Below are positions 5,501 to 41,103 of a DNA stretch of 41,103 nucleotides, in pieces. Source of the stretch: a virus; the IMG/VR virus record IMGVR_UViG_3300049440_000232, positions 1 through 41,103 of that record, one strand, 5' to 3'. The translations under genes and the position numbers were made by a program. Below the pieces are notes generated by a model, which saw nothing but the letters and a program-made list of their open reading frames with translations, was not told the origin of the DNA and did not search any database. Position 1 is the first letter of the stretch. The number at the start of each line of letters is the position of its first letter.

Positions 5501-7555
5501 CTCGCGGGCCAGACCTGTTACATCGGCGTGCTCGCGTTCGAGAACGCGGACGGCTCGGGCGCCGAATCGAGCGCGATCGGCCTCGCGACGGTGGCCTCCC
5601 CCGTCACGCCCGTCAACGGGCTCCTCGCGGTCCGCCCCTCCTGGAAGGCGAACCACCTGATCGTGAACGTCGAGGGCGGCCCGGGGACCGCGTCCTTCAA
5701 GATCGCGACCTCGACGGTGAGCTATCCCCTGGCGGGGACCGGCACCGTCACGAACGGGCAGAACGGGGACATCGACGTCGGCGCCTTCACTTACGGCCAG
5801 ACGGTCTTTGTCACCGTCACCCCCTATTCGGCCGCGGGCGGCGGCGGCTCGGCCGGGTCGGCCCTCGGCGCCCAGTCGACCTTGAGCTATGGCGATGGCG
5901 TGTTCGACCTGGGCGGCGGCCACGTGCTCCGGAGCTCGAGCTTCGATGATGGGAAGTTCGCCGTCCAGGCGGCGGATAGTGCCGGGGCGCAGGCGGCGCG
6001 CGCGGTCCAGATCCAGGGCCAGCTCCGGACCCTGGCGCAGATGCTCACGGAGCTCGTGCCGAACGCCGAGTTCGACATCTGGGAATCCACGAGCCAACCC
6101 CACGCGTGGACGGTCGATACGACGGCGGGGGCGGTCTGCGCCCGGGAGAGCGCGGCCCCCTTCTCCGGGGACTACGCCCTCAAGTACTCGAACCCCGACA
6201 ATGCCTCGAACGCCGGCTGGCATGGCGTCGCGACGAACGACCTGAACAAGGGGGCCTTCTGCGTGCCGCTCCGCGCCGGCCTCACCTACCGCATGAAGAT
6301 CGCGGCCAAGGCGAGCCGGGTCGTCGGCGGCCAGGAGTACCGCGTCGTCGTCAGCTTCAACGCCGCCGAGACGCTCCAGCAGGTCCAGACGTTCCCGCTG
6401 GCCGTCGCGAACGCCTGGCAGGTCGACTCCTTCATCCTCAACGTCCCCTCGGCCGCGGAGGCCAACAGCAAGGTCTACGTCCAGCTCAACCGGAACGGCG
6501 ATGCGACGGCCACGGACTTCTGGATCGACTCGCTCCGCCTGGTCGAGGACACCCCGAGCATCGCCGACCTGGTCGCCGCGGCCTCGGTCGCCGGCACCAA
6601 CATCGTCCAGAACCCGGGCTTCGAGGCGGGCGTCGCCTACTGGCGCCAGGTGGCCGGCGGCTCGCTCGATAGCACGGCCGCCACGCCGATCGCAGGGGCC
6701 CGGAGCGGCGTGATCGTCGCGGTCGCGAGCACGCTCGCGCGGATCCAGCAGTGCGATCGCGCCTCAGATCTCTCGGGGGGCCAGAACCCCTCCGGGGGCG
6801 CGCCGCTCTACGTCGCCGTGACCGGGGGCGATGAGGTCTTCGGCTCGCTCCAAGTGACTGCCGGGACCCTCGACGCCACCGCCGTGCTCAACTACAGCGT
6901 CGAGGAGTACGACGCGACGAAAGCCCTGATCCAGCGCACGGTGCTCGCGACGCGCGGCGGCATCGCCGCGCCCGTGACGATGGCCGGCGGGATGACCCTC
7001 CAAGCCACGACCGCCTACATCGTCGTGGTGTTCGAGGTCACGCCGAGCGCCGGCGGCGGCGGGATCACCTATCGGTGGGATGGCGTGACCCTCTATCGGG
7101 TCTCGCCGCCCAAGCGCCGGGTCAAGGCCCTCCTCAATGCGGCGCAGGCGCTCGTCAACAACACGCTGACGAAGCTGGCCTGGAACGGCGCCGATGAGTT
7201 CGACGTGGGGGCGATGCACGACCCGACGGGGGCGGCCCAGGCGAACACCGAGCTCATCGCGCCGGTCGCCGTCGTCGGCTATGGCGCCCTGCATCTCCAC
7301 GCCCAGGTCCAGTTCGCCGCCAACGCGGTCGGCATCCGGAAAGTCCAGATCAAGAAGAACAACGCGACCATCATCGCCGAGTCGGAATGCGCGGCCGTCA
7401 ACGGCGACGTCACGACGATCGACTGTTCCGTGGTCGTCCACCACCCGGCCGCGGGCGATTTCTACGAGGTGCTCGTGCTCCAGACGAGCGGCGGCAACCT
7501 CAACGCGACCAGCGGCCCCGGGACGTCCTTCTTCGAGGCACATCAGCTCGTCTAA
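2537..7555 (+). CDS. Tail hub/tip protein with carbohydrate-binding-like C-terminus
   Basis: This is the largest gene, 1,672 residues, starting with GTG in a GTGA overlap. By size and place it is the central tail hub or tip protein (equivalent to lambda J or Tal). Residues about 390-480 and 650-800 look like the structural hub domains that tail proteins share. Residues about 910-1110 look like two fibronectin type III modules. Residues about 1170-1480 contain two jelly-roll-like modules, beginning VPNAEFDIW and VQNPGFEAG, that resemble CBM4/9 carbohydrate-binding domains. These ends probably touch the host surface. No peptidase or lysozyme motif was found in it. Confidence 0.75.
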   Translation: MRPYSPALLERLAVIDATARPVIEAVALVETPAGLPQQDSRFRPDQWALADSVAGLAIDAFGGVSLLDTTITLIQNLLSNVGISDLDGPVTVQAASPFFAALVSWDANTYRNPQIDRVTLNLHPQFNPANAKTVAVWHCQLYGITDLSALIAGTNLQRVKDLVPLAPPIDVPAIGNAQGDVVFSWVGQAVRPRPRTVASAFFDMPTVCLVWATQADGTPATNVAWMADTTHTIVNAGLTTLQGIQLFNGGDGLLLDQLTVEPVPRLTFDMGSFVAAKVQFSGGGNQFTLPQVPTQTVEFQCEADVPTGASCVFEVLKDGGVAANDPDWLAITDGMTTDDPSLGGHVSKRATYQLRARLLPSAAGDATPIVRALGVREVTITDASSVARITNVRWAVDPPTLKAEIPQATLVALRDGDRDFQDLVTTILSLNDLGNLLIRTWVGDQALPRSQWIHIDDFLIDDTAPGGATISLTLLSVLTLLRGAVPQYAPATLAPPTADLANPGGFTNESGGAALFSHVNETIPDDTTYLQSVLHPAATECELAVQAIADPHLSTCHEIDIRYGKDVAGGDFIDITVQLRQGLTVIAAKLFQNVPAGFTLGTLALSAAQADTITDYTNLRLHFIINVNGGGGGGRRGRVSYALFQITARRTPVVYNNQSLAAVAQDLIQNEIELPARYQGAGVADTTTLVSKAITDSDAKAELDAIAFAAGVAYISSQGRVKAVDFMGGAWSSDPTPTWTLNPSAVVAVIPSEEIQPLDVTPGYRQRVPQYFAKWGWDPVAGKYAAEVRGFNAGALAALGAATLDPPVELDDIVAQYLQTAPQAQAIAQRQVQTLGAGMILLRFRTTYPRPWLELGDVIAIQTDRFVAKDPNTARSLKGQLWVIGKVQEIGDFLHREFAIWVRSYADLLAASEAANRLGFSAPLVGTVTGTIDGSGNVNVAIGTTAAESVRVAASTAGVPARATIEAAAPVAVAADGTVTIAAVFSPLLAGQTCYIGVLAFENADGSGAESSAIGLATVASPVTPVNGLLAVRPSWKANHLIVNVEGGPGTASFKIATSTVSYPLAGTGTVTNGQNGDIDVGAFTYGQTVFVTVTPYSAAGGGGSAGSALGAQSTLSYGDGVFDLGGGHVLRSSSFDDGKFAVQAADSAGAQAARAVQIQGQLRTLAQMLTELVPNAEFDIWESTSQPHAWTVDTTAGAVCARESAAPFSGDYALKYSNPDNASNAGWHGVATNDLNKGAFCVPLRAGLTYRMKIAAKASRVVGGQEYRVVVSFNAAETLQQVQTFPLAVANAWQVDSFILNVPSAAEANSKVYVQLNRNGDATATDFWIDSLRLVEDTPSIADLVAAASVAGTNIVQNPGFEAGVAYWRQVAGGSLDSTAATPIAGARSGVIVAVASTLARIQQCDRASDLSGGQNPSGGAPLYVAVTGGDEVFGSLQVTAGTLDATAVLNYSVEEYDATKALIQRTVLATRGGIAAPVTMAGGMTLQATTAYIVVVFEVTPSAGGGGITYRWDGVTLYRVSPPKRRVKALLNAAQALVNNTLTKLAWNGADEFDVGAMHDPTGAAQANTELIAPVAVVGYGALHLHAQVQFAANAVGIRKVQIKKNNATIIAESECAAVNGDVTTIDCSVVVHHPAAGDFYEVLVLQTSGGNLNATSGPGTSFFEAHQLV

Positions 7556-7578
7556 CCCGTGTCCCAGGAGACCCTTCG

Positions 7579-7902
7579 ATGACGTCCGTGACCCAGTATC
7601 TCGCGACCCGCGCCCAGGCGCCGGCGGTGGCGCCCATCCACGAGGCGGCGCTGGCGGCGCTCGCCCGGCTCCGGCAAGCCGCCCAGGACGCCGATGCGCT
7701 CGCCGCGCACGCCGATGCGCACCAGGCGGCCGCGGCGGATCGCGCCGCGTTCGGGGCCCTGGCCGAGGTGACGCAGCTGTCGAATCGGCTCTCCCAGGAG
7801 CTCTGGGGCGCGTACGAGCGGGTGCGGACGAGCTGCGAGGTGACGCTGCATCTGACGGAAGCCGAAGGGCGTCTCCAACCGCCGGCCGACGGCGGGTCGT
7901 GA
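7579..7902 (+). CDS. Small Ala-rich helical protein, unknown function
   Basis: The 107-residue product is almost entirely alpha-helical, with heptad-like Ala/Leu spacing (ALAALARLRQAAQDADALAA). The ATG at 7579 has a CAGGAG ribosome-binding site at 7565-7570. It opens the membrane/lysis cluster and overlaps the next gene by four bases. It has no signal peptide or cysteine. The short coiled coil could be a tail accessory or a partner of the membrane protein that follows. The function is not recognised. Confidence 0.6.
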   Translation: MTSVTQYLATRAQAPAVAPIHEAALAALARLRQAAQDADALAAHADAHQAAAADRAAFGALAEVTQLSNRLSQELWGAYERVRTSCEVTLHLTEAEGRLQPPADGGS

Positions 7903-8273
7903 CGGACCCGGGCTCGAGCTTCTGGGGCGCGCTCGGGATCGGCCCGGGCCTGACGGCGCTCTTGACGCTGATCGCCGTCACGGCGCTCGCGAGCGTGAAG
8001 CTCTGGCGGGAGCTCACCCACGACCGGCGTCACGAGCGCGACCCCCGTGAGCATCCTAGCCCGAAGGGCCTGGAGACGATCCCGACCGCGATCGCGATCG
8101 AAGTGCGGAACGCCCTGTCGACCCACCTCCTCCAGCTCGAGATCCTCCTCCGCGAATGGAGCGACCGCCAGCGCATCGAGGCCGAGCAGTGGCGCCGCGA
8201 GCTCCGGGGCGATCTCGACGAGTCCGTCGAACGGATCGAGAAGGCCGTGCGCCGGCTGCGGGAGCCCGTCTGA
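7899..8273 (+). CDS. Single-span membrane protein with cytoplasmic coiled coil
   Basis: GTG start in a GTGA overlap, 124 residues. Residues about 5-32 form one hydrophobic span (LGIGPGLTALLTLIAVTALA), followed by a charged helical region rich in Arg and Glu (LREWSDRQRIEAEQWRREL). The layout is like small phage membrane proteins found near lysis genes. A holin-accessory or inner-membrane spanin role is possible but not shown. It is directly coupled to the receiver-domain gene. Confidence 0.6.
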   Translation: MTDPGSSFWGALGIGPGLTALLTLIAVTALASVKLWRELTHDRRHERDPREHPSPKGLETIPTAIAIEVRNALSTHLLQLEILLREWSDRQRIEAEQWRRELRGDLDESVERIEKAVRRLREPV

Positions 8274-8611
8274 CCCGGATCCTCGTGGTCGAGGACGATG
8301 CCCTGCTCCGCCGGCTCCTCGCGACCGTGCTCGAGCGCGAAGGCTACCAGGTCACGGACGTCGGGACCGTCGCGCTGGCCGTGGCCCAACCGGGGCCCTG
8401 GGATCTCCTGCTCCTCGATCGGCGTCTCTCGAACGGCGATGGGCGCCGGGTCGCCGAAGAGTTCCAAGGGACGCCGACCCTCTACGTCTCGGCCTATCCG
8501 GATCCGGAGGCAGCCGCGGCCGGCAACTACCTCCAGAAGCCGTTCCTGCCGGAGCACTTCATCAAGAAGGTCCGCTCAATGCTGCCTCCCGCGCGCGAGG
8601 AGCTGCCATGA
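8270..8611 (+). CDS. Stand-alone response-regulator receiver domain
   Basis: The 113-residue product is a full CheY-like receiver with nothing after it. Counted from the CTG at 8270, the acidic pair is D9/D10 (VVEDD), the phospho-acceptor is D50 (LLLLDRRL), the switch Ser is S74 (LYVSAY) and the lysine is K90 (LQKPF). All four positions needed for phosphorylation are present. The only start that gives a normal receiver N-terminus is CTG in a CTGA overlap with the previous gene. An upstream ATG at 8156 would add 38 residues that are antisense-like in composition. There is no output domain, so it would act by protein contact or as a phosphate sink for a host kinase. Confidence 0.8.
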   Translation: MTRILVVEDDALLRRLLATVLEREGYQVTDVGTVALAVAQPGPWDLLLLDRRLSNGDGRRVAEEFQGTPTLYVSAYPDPEAAAAGNYLQKPFLPEHFIKKVRSMLPPAREELP

Positions 8612-8859
8612 AGTGGTCGTGGATCAGCGAGATGCCCACGACCCAGGTGCGGTTCGCGGCCTCGGTGGTCGCGACGCTCTGCGTGGTCGGCAAATACGTC
8701 CTCTCGTCCACCTGGGTCCCGGATCCCGGTGTGCTGCTTTTCCTGGGCGGCTGGCTCGGCATCGACACGACGCACTTCTATCTCAAGCGCCGGACGACGT
8801 TCGCCCCCGACGGGACGAAGACGACCGAGTCGGCCGCGGCGCCGGGGGCGACGCCGTGA
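8608..8859 (+). CDS. Small membrane protein, holin candidate
   Basis: This 83-residue protein has two likely transmembrane segments (about 17-34 and 40-56) and a charged C-terminal tail (YLKRRTT), placed immediately before the muramidase gene. Size, topology and place fit a class II holin, which would form the inner-membrane pore that triggers lysis. The ATG lies in an ATGA overlap with the receiver gene. Other small membrane proteins in the cluster are also holin candidates. Confidence 0.6.
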   Translation: MKWSWISEMPTTQVRFAASVVATLCVVGKYVLSSTWVPDPGVLLFLGGWLGIDTTHFYLKRRTTFAPDGTKTTESAAAPGATP

Positions 8860-9428
8860 CGGCGCGCCAGTTCCCCGATCCCCGCACGGCCGCCTTTCTC
8901 TTCACGGCGGCTCGCGAGGGCGGCGACAAGCCGGCCGGCACGCTCGGCGATCCGAACCACGCCTTCCGGGGCGTCAATCAGCGCACCTACGACGCCCACC
9001 GCCAGAAGCACGGACTGCCCACCCAGGACGTGACGCTGCTGTCGGCCGCCGAGCAGGCCGCGATCTATGACGACTACTGGGCCCGCGGGCGCTGCGCCGA
9101 GATCGCCGCGCACTCGGGGGCGCTGGCCCTCTGCCACTTCGATGCCGTCTTCAACGGCGGCGGCGTGGAGATCCTCGAGCGGGAGATCGGCGAGCTCACC
9201 CCCGACCAGGTCCTGACCGACGACGAGCTCGCGGCCGTCGTGTCGCTCCTCGCGCCCTATAACGTCTTCCCCGATGGCGAGACCGGCGAGGCCGGGGCCT
9301 GCGGGGCCTACTGCGAGGCCCGGCTCGCCCGCTTCCGCCGGCTGCACAACGCGGCCGCGGAGCCCGGCTGGGAAGTCCGCCTCAACCGGGTCGCGAGCTA
9401 TTGCGACCTCACCTGGAGGGTGACATGA
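8856..9428 (+). CDS. Endolysin, GH108-type N-acetylmuramidase
   Basis: GTG start in a GTGA overlap, 190 residues. The N-terminal AAREGGDKPA contains the Glu-Gly-Gly that marks the catalytic glutamate of the glycoside hydrolase 108 family. It is followed by the GD/N-x-x-x-A-F-R-G-V-N segment that in the family reads 'GG.T.YGI'. The middle (AIYDDYW, LALCHFDAVFNGG) matches the usual 'Y...YW' and 'D..VN.G' elements. It would cut the glycan strands of peptidoglycan at lysis. There is no signal peptide, so release would depend on a holin. The length fits the family. Confidence 0.75.
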   Translation: MTARQFPDPRTAAFLFTAAREGGDKPAGTLGDPNHAFRGVNQRTYDAHRQKHGLPTQDVTLLSAAEQAAIYDDYWARGRCAEIAAHSGALALCHFDAVFNGGGVEILEREIGELTPDQVLTDDELAAVVSLLAPYNVFPDGETGEAGACGAYCEARLARFRRLHNAAAEPGWEVRLNRVASYCDLTWRVT

Positions 9429-9700
9429 CGCTGCCCCGCTGGCTGAACCCGCCGTTCTGGTGGGCCTGGACGTTCCCGGGGGCGTCGCTCCTGATCGAGT
9501 TCGCGGGGGGGACGGTCCTGGCGACGCTCGTGCAGCCCGTCGGAGGCGCCCACGCGCTCGTCAATCGCTTTTTGCTCGCGACCATCCTCTCGGTCTTCTA
9601 TGAGGGCGAGCTCGACCGGAACGGCTGGAGCTGGGCCGATCTCGGGCAGCGGGCCCTCGGGGTCGCCCTGGGGCTCGCGCTCTGGCGTCTCGTGCGATGA
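9425..9700 (+). CDS. Small membrane protein of the lysis cluster
   Basis: This 91-residue product, starting at an ATG overlapping the muramidase stop, has a Trp-rich N-terminus (PPFWWAWTFPG) and two or three hydrophobic segments. It is in a string of coupled membrane genes after the endolysin. A holin or antiholin role is possible. No family is recognised. Confidence 0.55.
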   Translation: MTLPRWLNPPFWWAWTFPGASLLIEFAGGTVLATLVQPVGGAHALVNRFLLATILSVFYEGELDRNGWSWADLGQRALGVALGLALWRLVR

Positions 9701-9879
9701 GCCGGGCCTGGCGCCGGGAGCTCGGCTTCGTGGCGGGGCTCGCCGTCGGGTGCCTGCTCTTCGTGGCCGGCATGTGTTGGCAAGGGATCAGTGATCGGGC
9801 GGTCGTCCTCGAGGCGCGCGATGCGCTCGAGGCCGTGGCCGTGCAGCAGTGGGTGTTCAAGGTCCGACCTGGGAGGTAG
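9697..9879 (+). CDS. Short single-span membrane protein
   Basis: The 60-residue product has a basic N-terminus (SRAWRREL), one transmembrane segment (about 9-27, GFVAGLAVGCLLFVAGMCW) and a short helical tail. It overlaps the preceding stop by four bases. The topology is that of an inner-membrane spanin or a small anchor, but it is shorter than most spanins. Confidence 0.5.
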   Translation: MSRAWRRELGFVAGLAVGCLLFVAGMCWQGISDRAVVLEARDALEAVAVQQWVFKVRPGR

Positions 9880-15692: not shown

Positions 15693-15764
15693 GCGGAAGT
15701 CCTGCAGTCGGTGGAACGGCGCCCTACCAGGGCGACGTCCCGGGTTCGAGCCCCGGCTTCCGCT
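15693..15764 (+). tRNA. tRNA-Gly-like gene, anticodon ACC
   Basis: The 72-base segment has a perfect 7-bp acceptor stem (GCGGAAG / CTTCCGC, the pairing typical of tRNA-Gly). The T arm is perfect, CCGGG-TTCGAGC-CCCGG (15740-15756). The anticodon arm has four of five pairs and loop CTACCAG, giving anticodon ACC (Gly, GGU codon). The D arm (AGTCGGTGG loop) is recognisable but pairs poorly. CCA is not encoded. It could be a functional phage tRNA with an odd D arm or a decaying one. ACC is a very unusual bacterial glycine anticodon. Confidence 0.5.
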
Positions 15765-39409: not shown

Positions 39410-41103
39410 CGAAACCTCGACCCTCGTCGTCCAGTTCCGGGATGCTGGGGCGGCGGCCGGCCTCCAGGGGCTCCAGGGCGAGCTCGGGCGCACGGCGGCC
39501 GCGACCGAGGGCGCGTCGGCGGCGCTCCCCTCCTTCTACGCGGGCGCCGAGCAGGCGGGGATCAAGGCCGCCGGCGCCGAACGCGGCATGCGCCGCCTCG
39601 AGTACGGGCTCACCGCGGTCGCCACCCAGTCCCTGGGCGCCGAGTCCGGGCTGCTCGGCGCCGCCGCGCGGGCGAGCGAGGCGGGCCTCCTCTTCGGGTA
39701 CGGCTCGGAAGGCGTCCTCACGATCGCGGCGGGGTTCGGCGCCTTCGGGATCACCCTCAAGGCGATCGAGGCACCCCTCCACGCGGTCATGAAGGACACC
39801 GCCGGGCTTAGCACCGAATATGAGAAGCTCACCGCCTCCCTCCATCCGGGCGTGAGCGCGATGGAGCAGGTCCTGACGGTCGCGCAACAGCTCGCGCAGG
39901 TCCAGGAAGACGCGCAGCCGAACTTCTGGGAGGAGCTCTTCGGGACGGGGATCTTCGGCGCCCTGGGCGGGGCCCCGCTCATCCAGGAGCTGACCGATGC
40001 CCAGAATACGTACGCGGAATCTGCGAAAGCGACGGGCGAAAGCCTGAAGCCGGTGCTCGAGGAGCTGGTCGCGATCGGGCACACGAAGGACCTGATCCGG
40101 AACGTCACGGCCGAGATGGCGAACCTGGACGACGTCGGGACGCGGATCGTGCGGCACATCGGGACGCACCCGGCGGCGGGGATCCTGGGCCTCGACCCGG
40201 CGAAAGATGTGCCCGCGCATACCGAGGTCTCGGGCACGGGGCTCGTCGGCGCCCAGCAGGCCGCCGTCGCGAAGGCCCGCGGCATGGGCTGGGCGACGTC
40301 GATTGCCGATGGCGCAGTCGAGCAGATCGACCGGGACTTCGTCTCGCGGGTCGGGAAGGCGTTCGATCACGCGGCGCAGAACCTGGTCGACCCCGGCGGC
40401 TTGTCGAAGATGCGGGACGCGGTCGTCGACGCCCTCAAGGCCTCGGGCCTCTCCGATGCCGTCATCAATCAGTTCGTCGAGACCGTGAATACGGACTACG
40501 TCCGGGCGATCGACACGCTCTCGAAGGCCGGCGCCTTGGATCCGCTCCAGCGCCAGTTGCGGGCGCCGGCGCTCGGCGTCACGAACCGCCTCAGCGATCT
40601 CTTCCACGCGCCCTCGGGCGACGTCTTCCCGACGACCCACGAGGGGGCGTTCGATCTCCAGACGTTCAACCTGGCCGACTTCCGGCAGAACCTCACCCGG
40701 GGGATCGGCCGGCCGGGCGAGCTGGGGCCGGGGCAGCTCCAGGAGGCGAACCGGCTCGCGGCGCAGGACGATCCCTTCGCGAAATACCAGACGGGGCTCA
40801 AGGCCCTCCAGGACGTCTTCGGACCCAACGGGATCCTGCCCGATCAGGAGAAGTTCACCCGCGGCCTCGAGACCCTGCAGAAGCAATACGACCTCGCGAC
40901 CAAGAAGTCGGACCAGCTGGGCATCACCCTCGTCGGTGCGATCGGGGCCGCGATCGGCGCGTTCAGCTCGGGGACGCCGGCGGGACTCCTCGGCGGCGCG
41001 GGCGGTCTGCTCACGACGCTCTCGAGCCAGGCCGGCCTGGGGCTCGCGGGGCTGGGGCTGCCCGGCGCGATCCTGGGCGTCCTGGCCGGGGGGGGGGGGG
41101 CGC
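39402..41103 (+). CDS. Tape measure protein, N-terminal and central part (continues at 2-355)
   Basis: The ATG at 39402 overlaps the end of the chaperone extension. Up to 41089 the frame encodes about 562 residues and continues at position 127 to a stop at 355, giving about 638 residues. It starts SLVVQF-like (MPDETSTLVVQFRD) and is mostly helical with Ala/Gly/Gln and a hydrophobic stretch near residue 540 and at the end. By the usual rule of about 1.5 angstrom per residue the tail would be near 95 nm. Bases 41090-41103 are an artefact and not part of the gene. Confidence 0.82.
   Translation, partial: MPDETSTLVVQFRDAGAAAGLQGLQGELGRTAAATEGASAALPSFYAGAEQAGIKAAGAERGMRRLEYGLTAVATQSLGAESGLLGAAARASEAGLLFGYGSEGVLTIAAGFGAFGITLKAIEAPLHAVMKDTAGLSTEYEKLTASLHPGVSAMEQVLTVAQQLAQVQEDAQPNFWEELFGTGIFGALGGAPLIQELTDAQNTYAESAKATGESLKPVLEELVAIGHTKDLIRNVTAEMANLDDVGTRIVRHIGTHPAAGILGLDPAKDVPAHTEVSGTGLVGAQQAAVAKARGMGWATSIADGAVEQIDRDFVSRVGKAFDHAAQNLVDPGGLSKMRDAVVDALKASGLSDAVINQFVETVNTDYVRAIDTLSKAGALDPLQRQLRAPALGVTNRLSDLFHAPSGDVFPTTHEGAFDLQTFNLADFRQNLTRGIGRPGELGPGQLQEANRLAAQDDPFAKYQTGLKALQDVFGPNGILPDQEKFTRGLETLQKQYDLATKKSDQLGITLVGAIGAAIGAFSSGTPAGLLGGAGGLLTTLSSQAGLGLAGLGLPGAILGVLAGGGGA
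40964..41089. repeat. Terminal overlap, right copy (same as 1-126)
   Basis: Identical to 1-126. Removing one copy and the tail after it closes the circle at about 40,963 bp. Confidence 0.93.
41088..41103. other. G-run and end artefact
   Basis: Thirteen consecutive G (41088-41100) followed by CGC. The true sequence at this point (127 onward in the left copy) begins with C. A G run of this kind is typical of two-colour sequencing reads past their end. Confidence 0.8.

Follow-up and report, generated by a model that had tools for sequence, protein, structure and literature searches.

Single-domain receivers that are preceded by the gene of a small membrane coiled-coil protein recur in or beside the lysis genes of phages of different types, and this recurrence is the main new result of our analysis. 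One such receiver lies in the IMG/VR virus record IMGVR_UViG_3300049440_000232, all 41,103 nucleotides of which are referred to here as the window. We found co-location and coupling with genes for endolysins and for holins or spanins in the window, in six other phage groups and in one cyanophage-like contig. Most of this recurrence is confined to phages of one host genus, Alteromonas.

A complete receiver domain in the window

Our analysis confirmed that the open reading frame at 8,270 to 8,611 (plus strand) encodes a complete CheY-like single-domain receiver with intact acceptor-site residues. From start to stop, its 113 residues make up one domain, which matches the Pfam profile PF00072 with 44.4 bits (cut-off 30.2) and is the only match to this profile in the 41.1-kb record. 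Counted in the translation, the acidic pair (D9 and D10), the acceptor aspartate (D50), the Ser/Thr position (S74) and the lysine (K90) are all present. An AlphaFold2 model made from an alignment of 36 sequences (pLDDT 91.7, pTM 0.84) has the (beta-alpha)5 fold with all five strands, and a Foldseek search with this model returned hundreds of solved receivers (best E 1e-7, TM-scores of about 0.8). According to the model and the alignment, helix alpha4 is shortened to 6 residues (79-84) and helix alpha3 is trimmed. There is no output domain, as the frame stops about 9 residues past the fifth and last helix. We ruled out that the protein is a transcription factor of the PhoB/OmpR class, since it has no C-terminal winged-helix DNA-binding domain.

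The codon score is positive in the receiver frame alone (+0.24, versus -0.81 and -1.4 in the other two forward frames). A first-pass annotation of this DNA had described a CheY-like receiver with these five residues intact and without an output domain; translation, profile search and predicted structure all bear this out.

The lysis cluster of the window

First in the gene order comes a helical protein without a transmembrane (TM) segment (gene starting at 7,579). It is followed on the plus strand by a membrane coiled-coil protein of 124 residues with a GTG start (7,899 to 8,273), the presumed partner of the receiver, and then by the receiver itself. Downstream, on the same strand, we find an 83-residue protein with two hydrophobic segments, a strong one and a weaker one (8,608 to 8,859), which has no family match and which its hydropathy makes a candidate holin or lysis regulator. 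Next come a GH108 endolysin of 190 residues (8,856 to 9,428; PF05838, 34.7 bits, E 2.6e-8), a hydrophobic 91-residue holin candidate (9,425 to 9,700), which has no family match above chance, and a 60-residue candidate for a small lysis-membrane protein (9,697 to 9,879) with a predicted N-terminal TM helix (9-27). Profile searches gave no holin or spanin family matches among the window's own membrane proteins.

Neighbouring genes overlap by 4 nucleotides at all six junctions among the genes from 7,579 to 9,700, and they therefore look translationally coupled. The start codons are ATG or GTG at five of the junctions. The receiver starts at 8,270 with a non-standard CTG (not ATG, GTG or TTG), which joins the TGA of the upstream gene as CTGA, and a likely ribosome-binding site, GGGAG (8,260 to 8,264, plus strand), lies 5 nucleotides before it. 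The other in-frame starts are an ATG at 8,156, inside the upstream gene, and a GTG at 8,285, which would cut strand 1. At its other end, the stop of the receiver overlaps the ATG of the next gene. The receiver thus shares 4 nucleotides with each neighbour, which leaves no room for a promoter of its own. Between 7,400 and 10,600 no promoter-like sites (in a scan for the sigma-70 type only) or terminator-like sites were found. The receiver had been placed between coupled membrane proteins ahead of the endolysin, and this order stands, with TM proteins on both sides and the GH108 gene next.

The upstream protein has one TM helix (residues 12-33) and a long helix that is predicted to be cytoplasmic. 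Its AlphaFold2 model, computed from the single sequence, consists of a helix at residues 16-45 and a continuous 62-residue helix at 60-121 (pLDDT 79). Given this predicted structure, we treat it as a membrane coiled-coil protein of the lysis region. It may resemble the XhlA-type and class III holin-like coiled-coil lysis proteins, small proteins with a single TM helix and a helical part in the cytoplasm. TM coiled-coil proteins are also frequent in lysis regions without receivers.

Elsewhere in the window there is a tRNA-Gly gene (anticodon ACC) at 15,693 to 15,764. The first 40 bases recur at 40,964, 140 bases before the end, so that the ends (1 to 140 and 40,964 to 41,103) are partly redundant but do not form an exact terminal repeat, and the record is perhaps close to complete.

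Receivers at the lysis genes of other phages

Single-domain receivers in or beside lysis genes were found in six other phage groups (R9Y1-type, PB15/XX1924, V22-type, the schitovirus A5, the Foturviruses R8W/H4-4, and V19/R22Y), and in each of them a membrane coiled-coil gene of 93-125 residues precedes the receiver. In the siphoviruses R9Y1-R9Y3 and the environmental contigs L136 and L137, the coiled-coil protein and the receiver are followed by a GH108 lysozyme (PF05838, 85 bits) and a small hydrophobic TM protein. PB15 has a coiled-coil-TM protein, the receiver, an M15 peptidase (PF08291) and a GTA_holin_3TM (PF11351). XX1924 has the same order and also keeps the holin, but carries DUF5675 where PB15 has the peptidase; the coiled-coil gene is 88% identical between the two phages and the receiver 62%. 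In the myovirus V22 we see a C92-type amidase (PF05708 at 19.8 bits, which is below its cut-off), a coiled-coil protein of 125 residues with a weak TM segment, a receiver of 149 residues, an Rz-like spanin (phrog_4297, E 7e-6) and a 2-TM protein, and its environmental relatives L030-L032 share this gene order. The schitovirus A5 and the contig L033 have the coiled-coil protein (122 residues in A5), the receiver (147 residues in A5), an Rz-like and a 2-TM protein, and an endolysin, which is annotated in A5. In the Foturviruses R8W and H4/4, a class II holin precedes a one-TM coiled-coil protein, the receiver, a membrane protein and the terminase.

Two further cases lie outside Alteromonas. L006, a contig of 101 kb, has a TM protein, a lysozyme (PF00959), a protein that joins a receiver and an FHA-like region, and a TM coiled-coil protein, where the labels "cyanophage" and "FHA" are readings of the sequence and not profile matches. 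Its lysozyme also weakly matches a Tlde1 domain (the stretch from lysozyme to fusion is 6,815 to 8,774). In L005, a coiled-coil-TM protein, a receiver and a 2-TM protein follow each other, and no endolysin was identified nearby.

The lysis enzymes differ between the groups (C92, GH108, M15, lysozyme, DUF5675-linked) and are non-homologous, as are the types of phages. Furthermore, no sequence kinship between the coiled-coil protein of the window and its counterparts in the other phages was detectable; the gene architecture, as read from the sequences, recurs, but the coiled-coil sequence of the window does not.

Some of these genes have been described before. R8W gp48 was named PhoB and tied to phosphate (PMC8228385), while V22 gp30 and A5 gp11 were named CheY-like auxiliary metabolic genes in a host-recognition module, with their Rz-type spanin and 2-TM neighbours given as unknown (PMC7289586, PMC10579305). 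These neighbours look like lysis genes (L028 6,168-7,039, L034 4,410-5,305, L030 5,419-6,281): we read one as an i-spanin of the Rz type (phrog_4297 for V22) and another as a holin-like protein with two TM segments, besides an embedded lipoprotein frame that resembles Rz1. A short Rz1-like lipoprotein frame is embedded in L030, L032 and L033, in the first two at the end of Rz. Like the receiver of the window, V22 gp30, A5 gp11 and R8W gp48 consist of a single receiver domain and are encoded at lysis genes, after the gene of a small membrane coiled-coil protein. They have no DNA-binding domain and are thus not PhoB, and the receiver of the window branches apart from them. In the literature that we searched, which covered few subscription journals, we found no description of an association of phage receivers with lysis.

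A separate observation concerns the PHROG family phrog_731, listed with "unknown function". It matches the receiver domain of all four intact phage receivers tested (window, V22, R9Y1 and R8W) and is probably a response-regulator family.

Receivers without the acceptor site

V19 and R22Y (L051 4,998-5,450 and L140 3,001-3,465) have a TM coiled-coil protein followed by a receiver-like protein in which the acceptor aspartate (D50) and the lysine (K90) are missing. The pair of genes converges with DUF5675 and a holin-like gene with several TM segments, and the two pseudo-receivers are 54% identical to each other. All other aligned phage receivers, across very divergent lineages, retain both residues. 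Since V19 and R22Y have kept the pair without D50 and K90, phosphorylation is not needed in every member, and the pseudo-receivers argue for binding, rather than phosphorylation, as the part that may be most conserved.

Chance, origin and selection

Judged roughly from the number of annotated features (50-156 per genome), a random gene has a chance of about 5-17% of lying no more than two genes away from a lysis gene. The same placement across four to six lineages is unlikely to arise by chance, where it has to be kept in mind that lineages that share modules (V22 with A5, and R9Y1 with R8W) are not independent. As a control, we looked at the 80 best bacterial relatives, of which only 4 have the size of a single domain. 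No homologues of eight lysis proteins were detected in the flanks (up to 5 kb) of the bacterial single-domain relatives, a control of limited sensitivity.

In a tree of 94 receivers, which is based on few columns and has several long branches, the receivers of Alteromonas phages group together (support 98/85). The receivers of the window, L005 and L006 fall outside this clade, among bacterial receivers, and the supported branches require three or more switches between phage and non-phage (Bhz63 counted in). As the receiver of the window lies outside the Alteromonas-phage clade, recruitment of receivers by phages looks repeated. The best bacterial receivers are 30-41% identical to that of the window, which is too distant to name a donor.

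Receivers and coiled-coil partners are under purifying selection in the pairs that were measured (for the receivers, dN 0.19 and dS 2.3 between R9Y1 and L136, and dN 0.014 and dS 0.23 between A5 and L033). We found no close relatives of the window's endolysin and upstream gene in IMG/VR. In the distant capsid relatives L008-L010, the portal, the capsid and one further gene align with the window and nothing else does, and a receiver was not seen, which makes the gene accessory. The first-pass annotation had held that its reading would fall if related phages lacked the gene or had D50 or K90 mutated. Each of these was found in part, the first in L008-L010 and the second in the one cousin lineage V19/R22Y, from which it follows that phosphorylation is not universal in this niche.

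Records excluded from the comparison

Several matches were not comparable. L002-L004 and MW462191 have regulators of the OmpR type next to GTA-like clusters, and in L004 the end of the contig truncates the regulator. In L002, L003, L004 and L027, a PhoP/OmpR-type regulator stands shortly after GTA-like tail clusters in contigs that were called viral, and it is probably a conserved chromosomal neighbour of such clusters. L021 has an OmpR-type gene at the contig edge, and the receivers of L007 are part of a hybrid-kinase-like protein at the contig end. In L022, the receiver stands at the contig start and the gene after it encodes an iron permease (PF04120, 113 bits); this contig is probably host DNA and was discarded. 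INPHARED records from the Listeria LM, Enterococcus Efs, Staphylococcus SA, Salmonella and human-faecal sets hold many host-type regulators, a likely contamination. The UNVERIFIED Pseudomonas records Y1 and Y11 were not used (the match in Y11 is inside a frame of 542 residues).

In the Stenotrophomonas phage Bhz63 (L025 3,989-5,535), a PhoP-like regulator lies near NinB and adjoins a gene whose annotation names a sensor-kinase-like domain, and the two are possibly a phage-borne two-component pair. This regulator is away from lysis genes and is a counter-example to the placement, though it is not a single-domain protein.

Discussion

From the sequence comparisons we tentatively prefer a reading in which the receiver and its membrane partner are a module for the timing of lysis, where the receiver acts on the coiled-coil protein, probably depending on phosphorylation. 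The receiver would be translated together with the upstream membrane protein in a late operon, and its phosphorylation state would be set by a host histidine kinase or by acetyl phosphate. Phosphorylation would alter the docking of the receiver to the cytoplasmic helix of the upstream protein, or to the downstream TM protein, and the altered docking would delay or permit the triggering of the holin. The first-pass annotation had tied the receiver to the timing of lysis or lysogeny. The recurrence of receivers in or beside the lysis genes of unrelated phages speaks for the former, while lysogeny has no direct support.

On the other hand, the receiver could be accessory cargo (a moron) that drains phosphate from a host two-component pathway or competes in it, with the region from tail fibre to lysis genes as a common landing site for such cargo. 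In principle, a receiver that stands alone and has an intact site can drain phosphate; furthermore, the gene was not found in L008-L010, and relatives have been published as auxiliary metabolic genes (PMC8228385, PMC7289586). We nevertheless consider this rather unlikely. Draining phosphate from a host kinase, which had also been proposed, does not explain the fixed place and the tight coupling, with overlaps of 4 nucleotides at either end of the gene and neither a promoter nor a terminator found for it; a small membrane coiled-coil partner is there every time although the sequence families differ; late co-expression would be poor timing for a decoy; and V19 and R22Y have retained the gene after the loss of the phosphorylation site. 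This last point, with the pseudo-receivers still paired with the same kind of gene, would fit a protein that binds or scaffolds the coiled-coil protein independently of phosphorylation, the intact site being ancestral or only modulating the binding. The shortened alpha4 of the window's receiver, part of the usual output face, points the same way. However, the conservation of aspartate and lysine outside V19/R22Y is hard to explain if they are not used, and we hold such a scaffold to be unlikely, a little more so than cargo.

The remaining two explanations seem much less probable. The upstream protein could be a degenerate DHp domain of a histidine kinase and form a phage-encoded two-component pair with the receiver, as its residues 64-121 match HisKA (PF00512) with 18.4 bits (E 0.0022). 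We rejected this identity and give the pair very little credence: the score is below the cut-off of 26.9, the position of the phospho-accepting histidine reads isoleucine (AIEVRNAL), the model has one continuous helix and not a hairpin, and none of the ten coiled-coil partners scanned from other loci matches HisKA. Among the ten window proteins scanned with Pfam profiles, no kinase scored above cut-off. Most improbable of all is a bacterial gene on a mis-assembled contig or at the edge of a prophage. It is true that in the IMG/VR matches L002-L004 the receiver is probably a chromosomal gene of the OmpR type by a GTA-like cluster, but that of the window is embedded by its overlaps between phage genes, in a record with terminase-, portal-, capsid- and tail-like frames and partly redundant ends.

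How does the proposed lysis-timing module compare with known systems? With single-domain response regulators such as CheY, DivK and Spo0F, the receiver of the window shares the full fold, the acidic pair, the aspartate, the Ser/Thr and the lysine, and the lack of an output domain. Unlike them, it is encoded by a phage, shares only 30-41% identity with the nearest receivers found, is short in alpha4, and is coupled to lysis genes instead of chemotaxis or a phosphorelay. In phage N4, the lysis regulator and pinholin gp62/gp63 involve a small one-TM protein with a cytoplasmic helical region that is proposed to regulate lysis timing, and this may be a useful parallel for a regulatory region on a membrane lysis protein. 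However, the "Receiver domain" of N4 belongs to the pinholin itself, as a short conserved segment, and is not CheY-like, and a receiver protein is not reported there (PMC12642591). RoeA of Yersinia entomophaga is alike in that a regulator with a PhoB-type link governs a holin/endolysin cassette, but it binds DNA and has no phosphorylation domain, the reverse of our receiver-only protein (PMC10101115).

When phages lyse, and whether they read the state of the host for it, is an old open question. Lysis inhibition in T4 and N4 provides known cases of adjustable lysis timing. The placement by lysis genes calls into question the published readings of these receiver genes as PhoB or as part of host recognition. 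With more reserve than for the window alone, we can imagine a widespread and repeatedly invented class of lysis regulators, in which a receiver and a membrane coiled-coil partner would link the triggering of the holin to the two-component signalling of the host (on envelope stress, nutrient state or superinfection). Several of the Alteromonas phages with such a pair are in culture, and the model is thus open to deletion and point mutants. A receiver embedded in the lysis cassettes of unrelated phages would, if true, wire bacterial signalling directly to lysis. Since unrelated viruses share this placement, bacterial signalling may help to set the moment of lysis.
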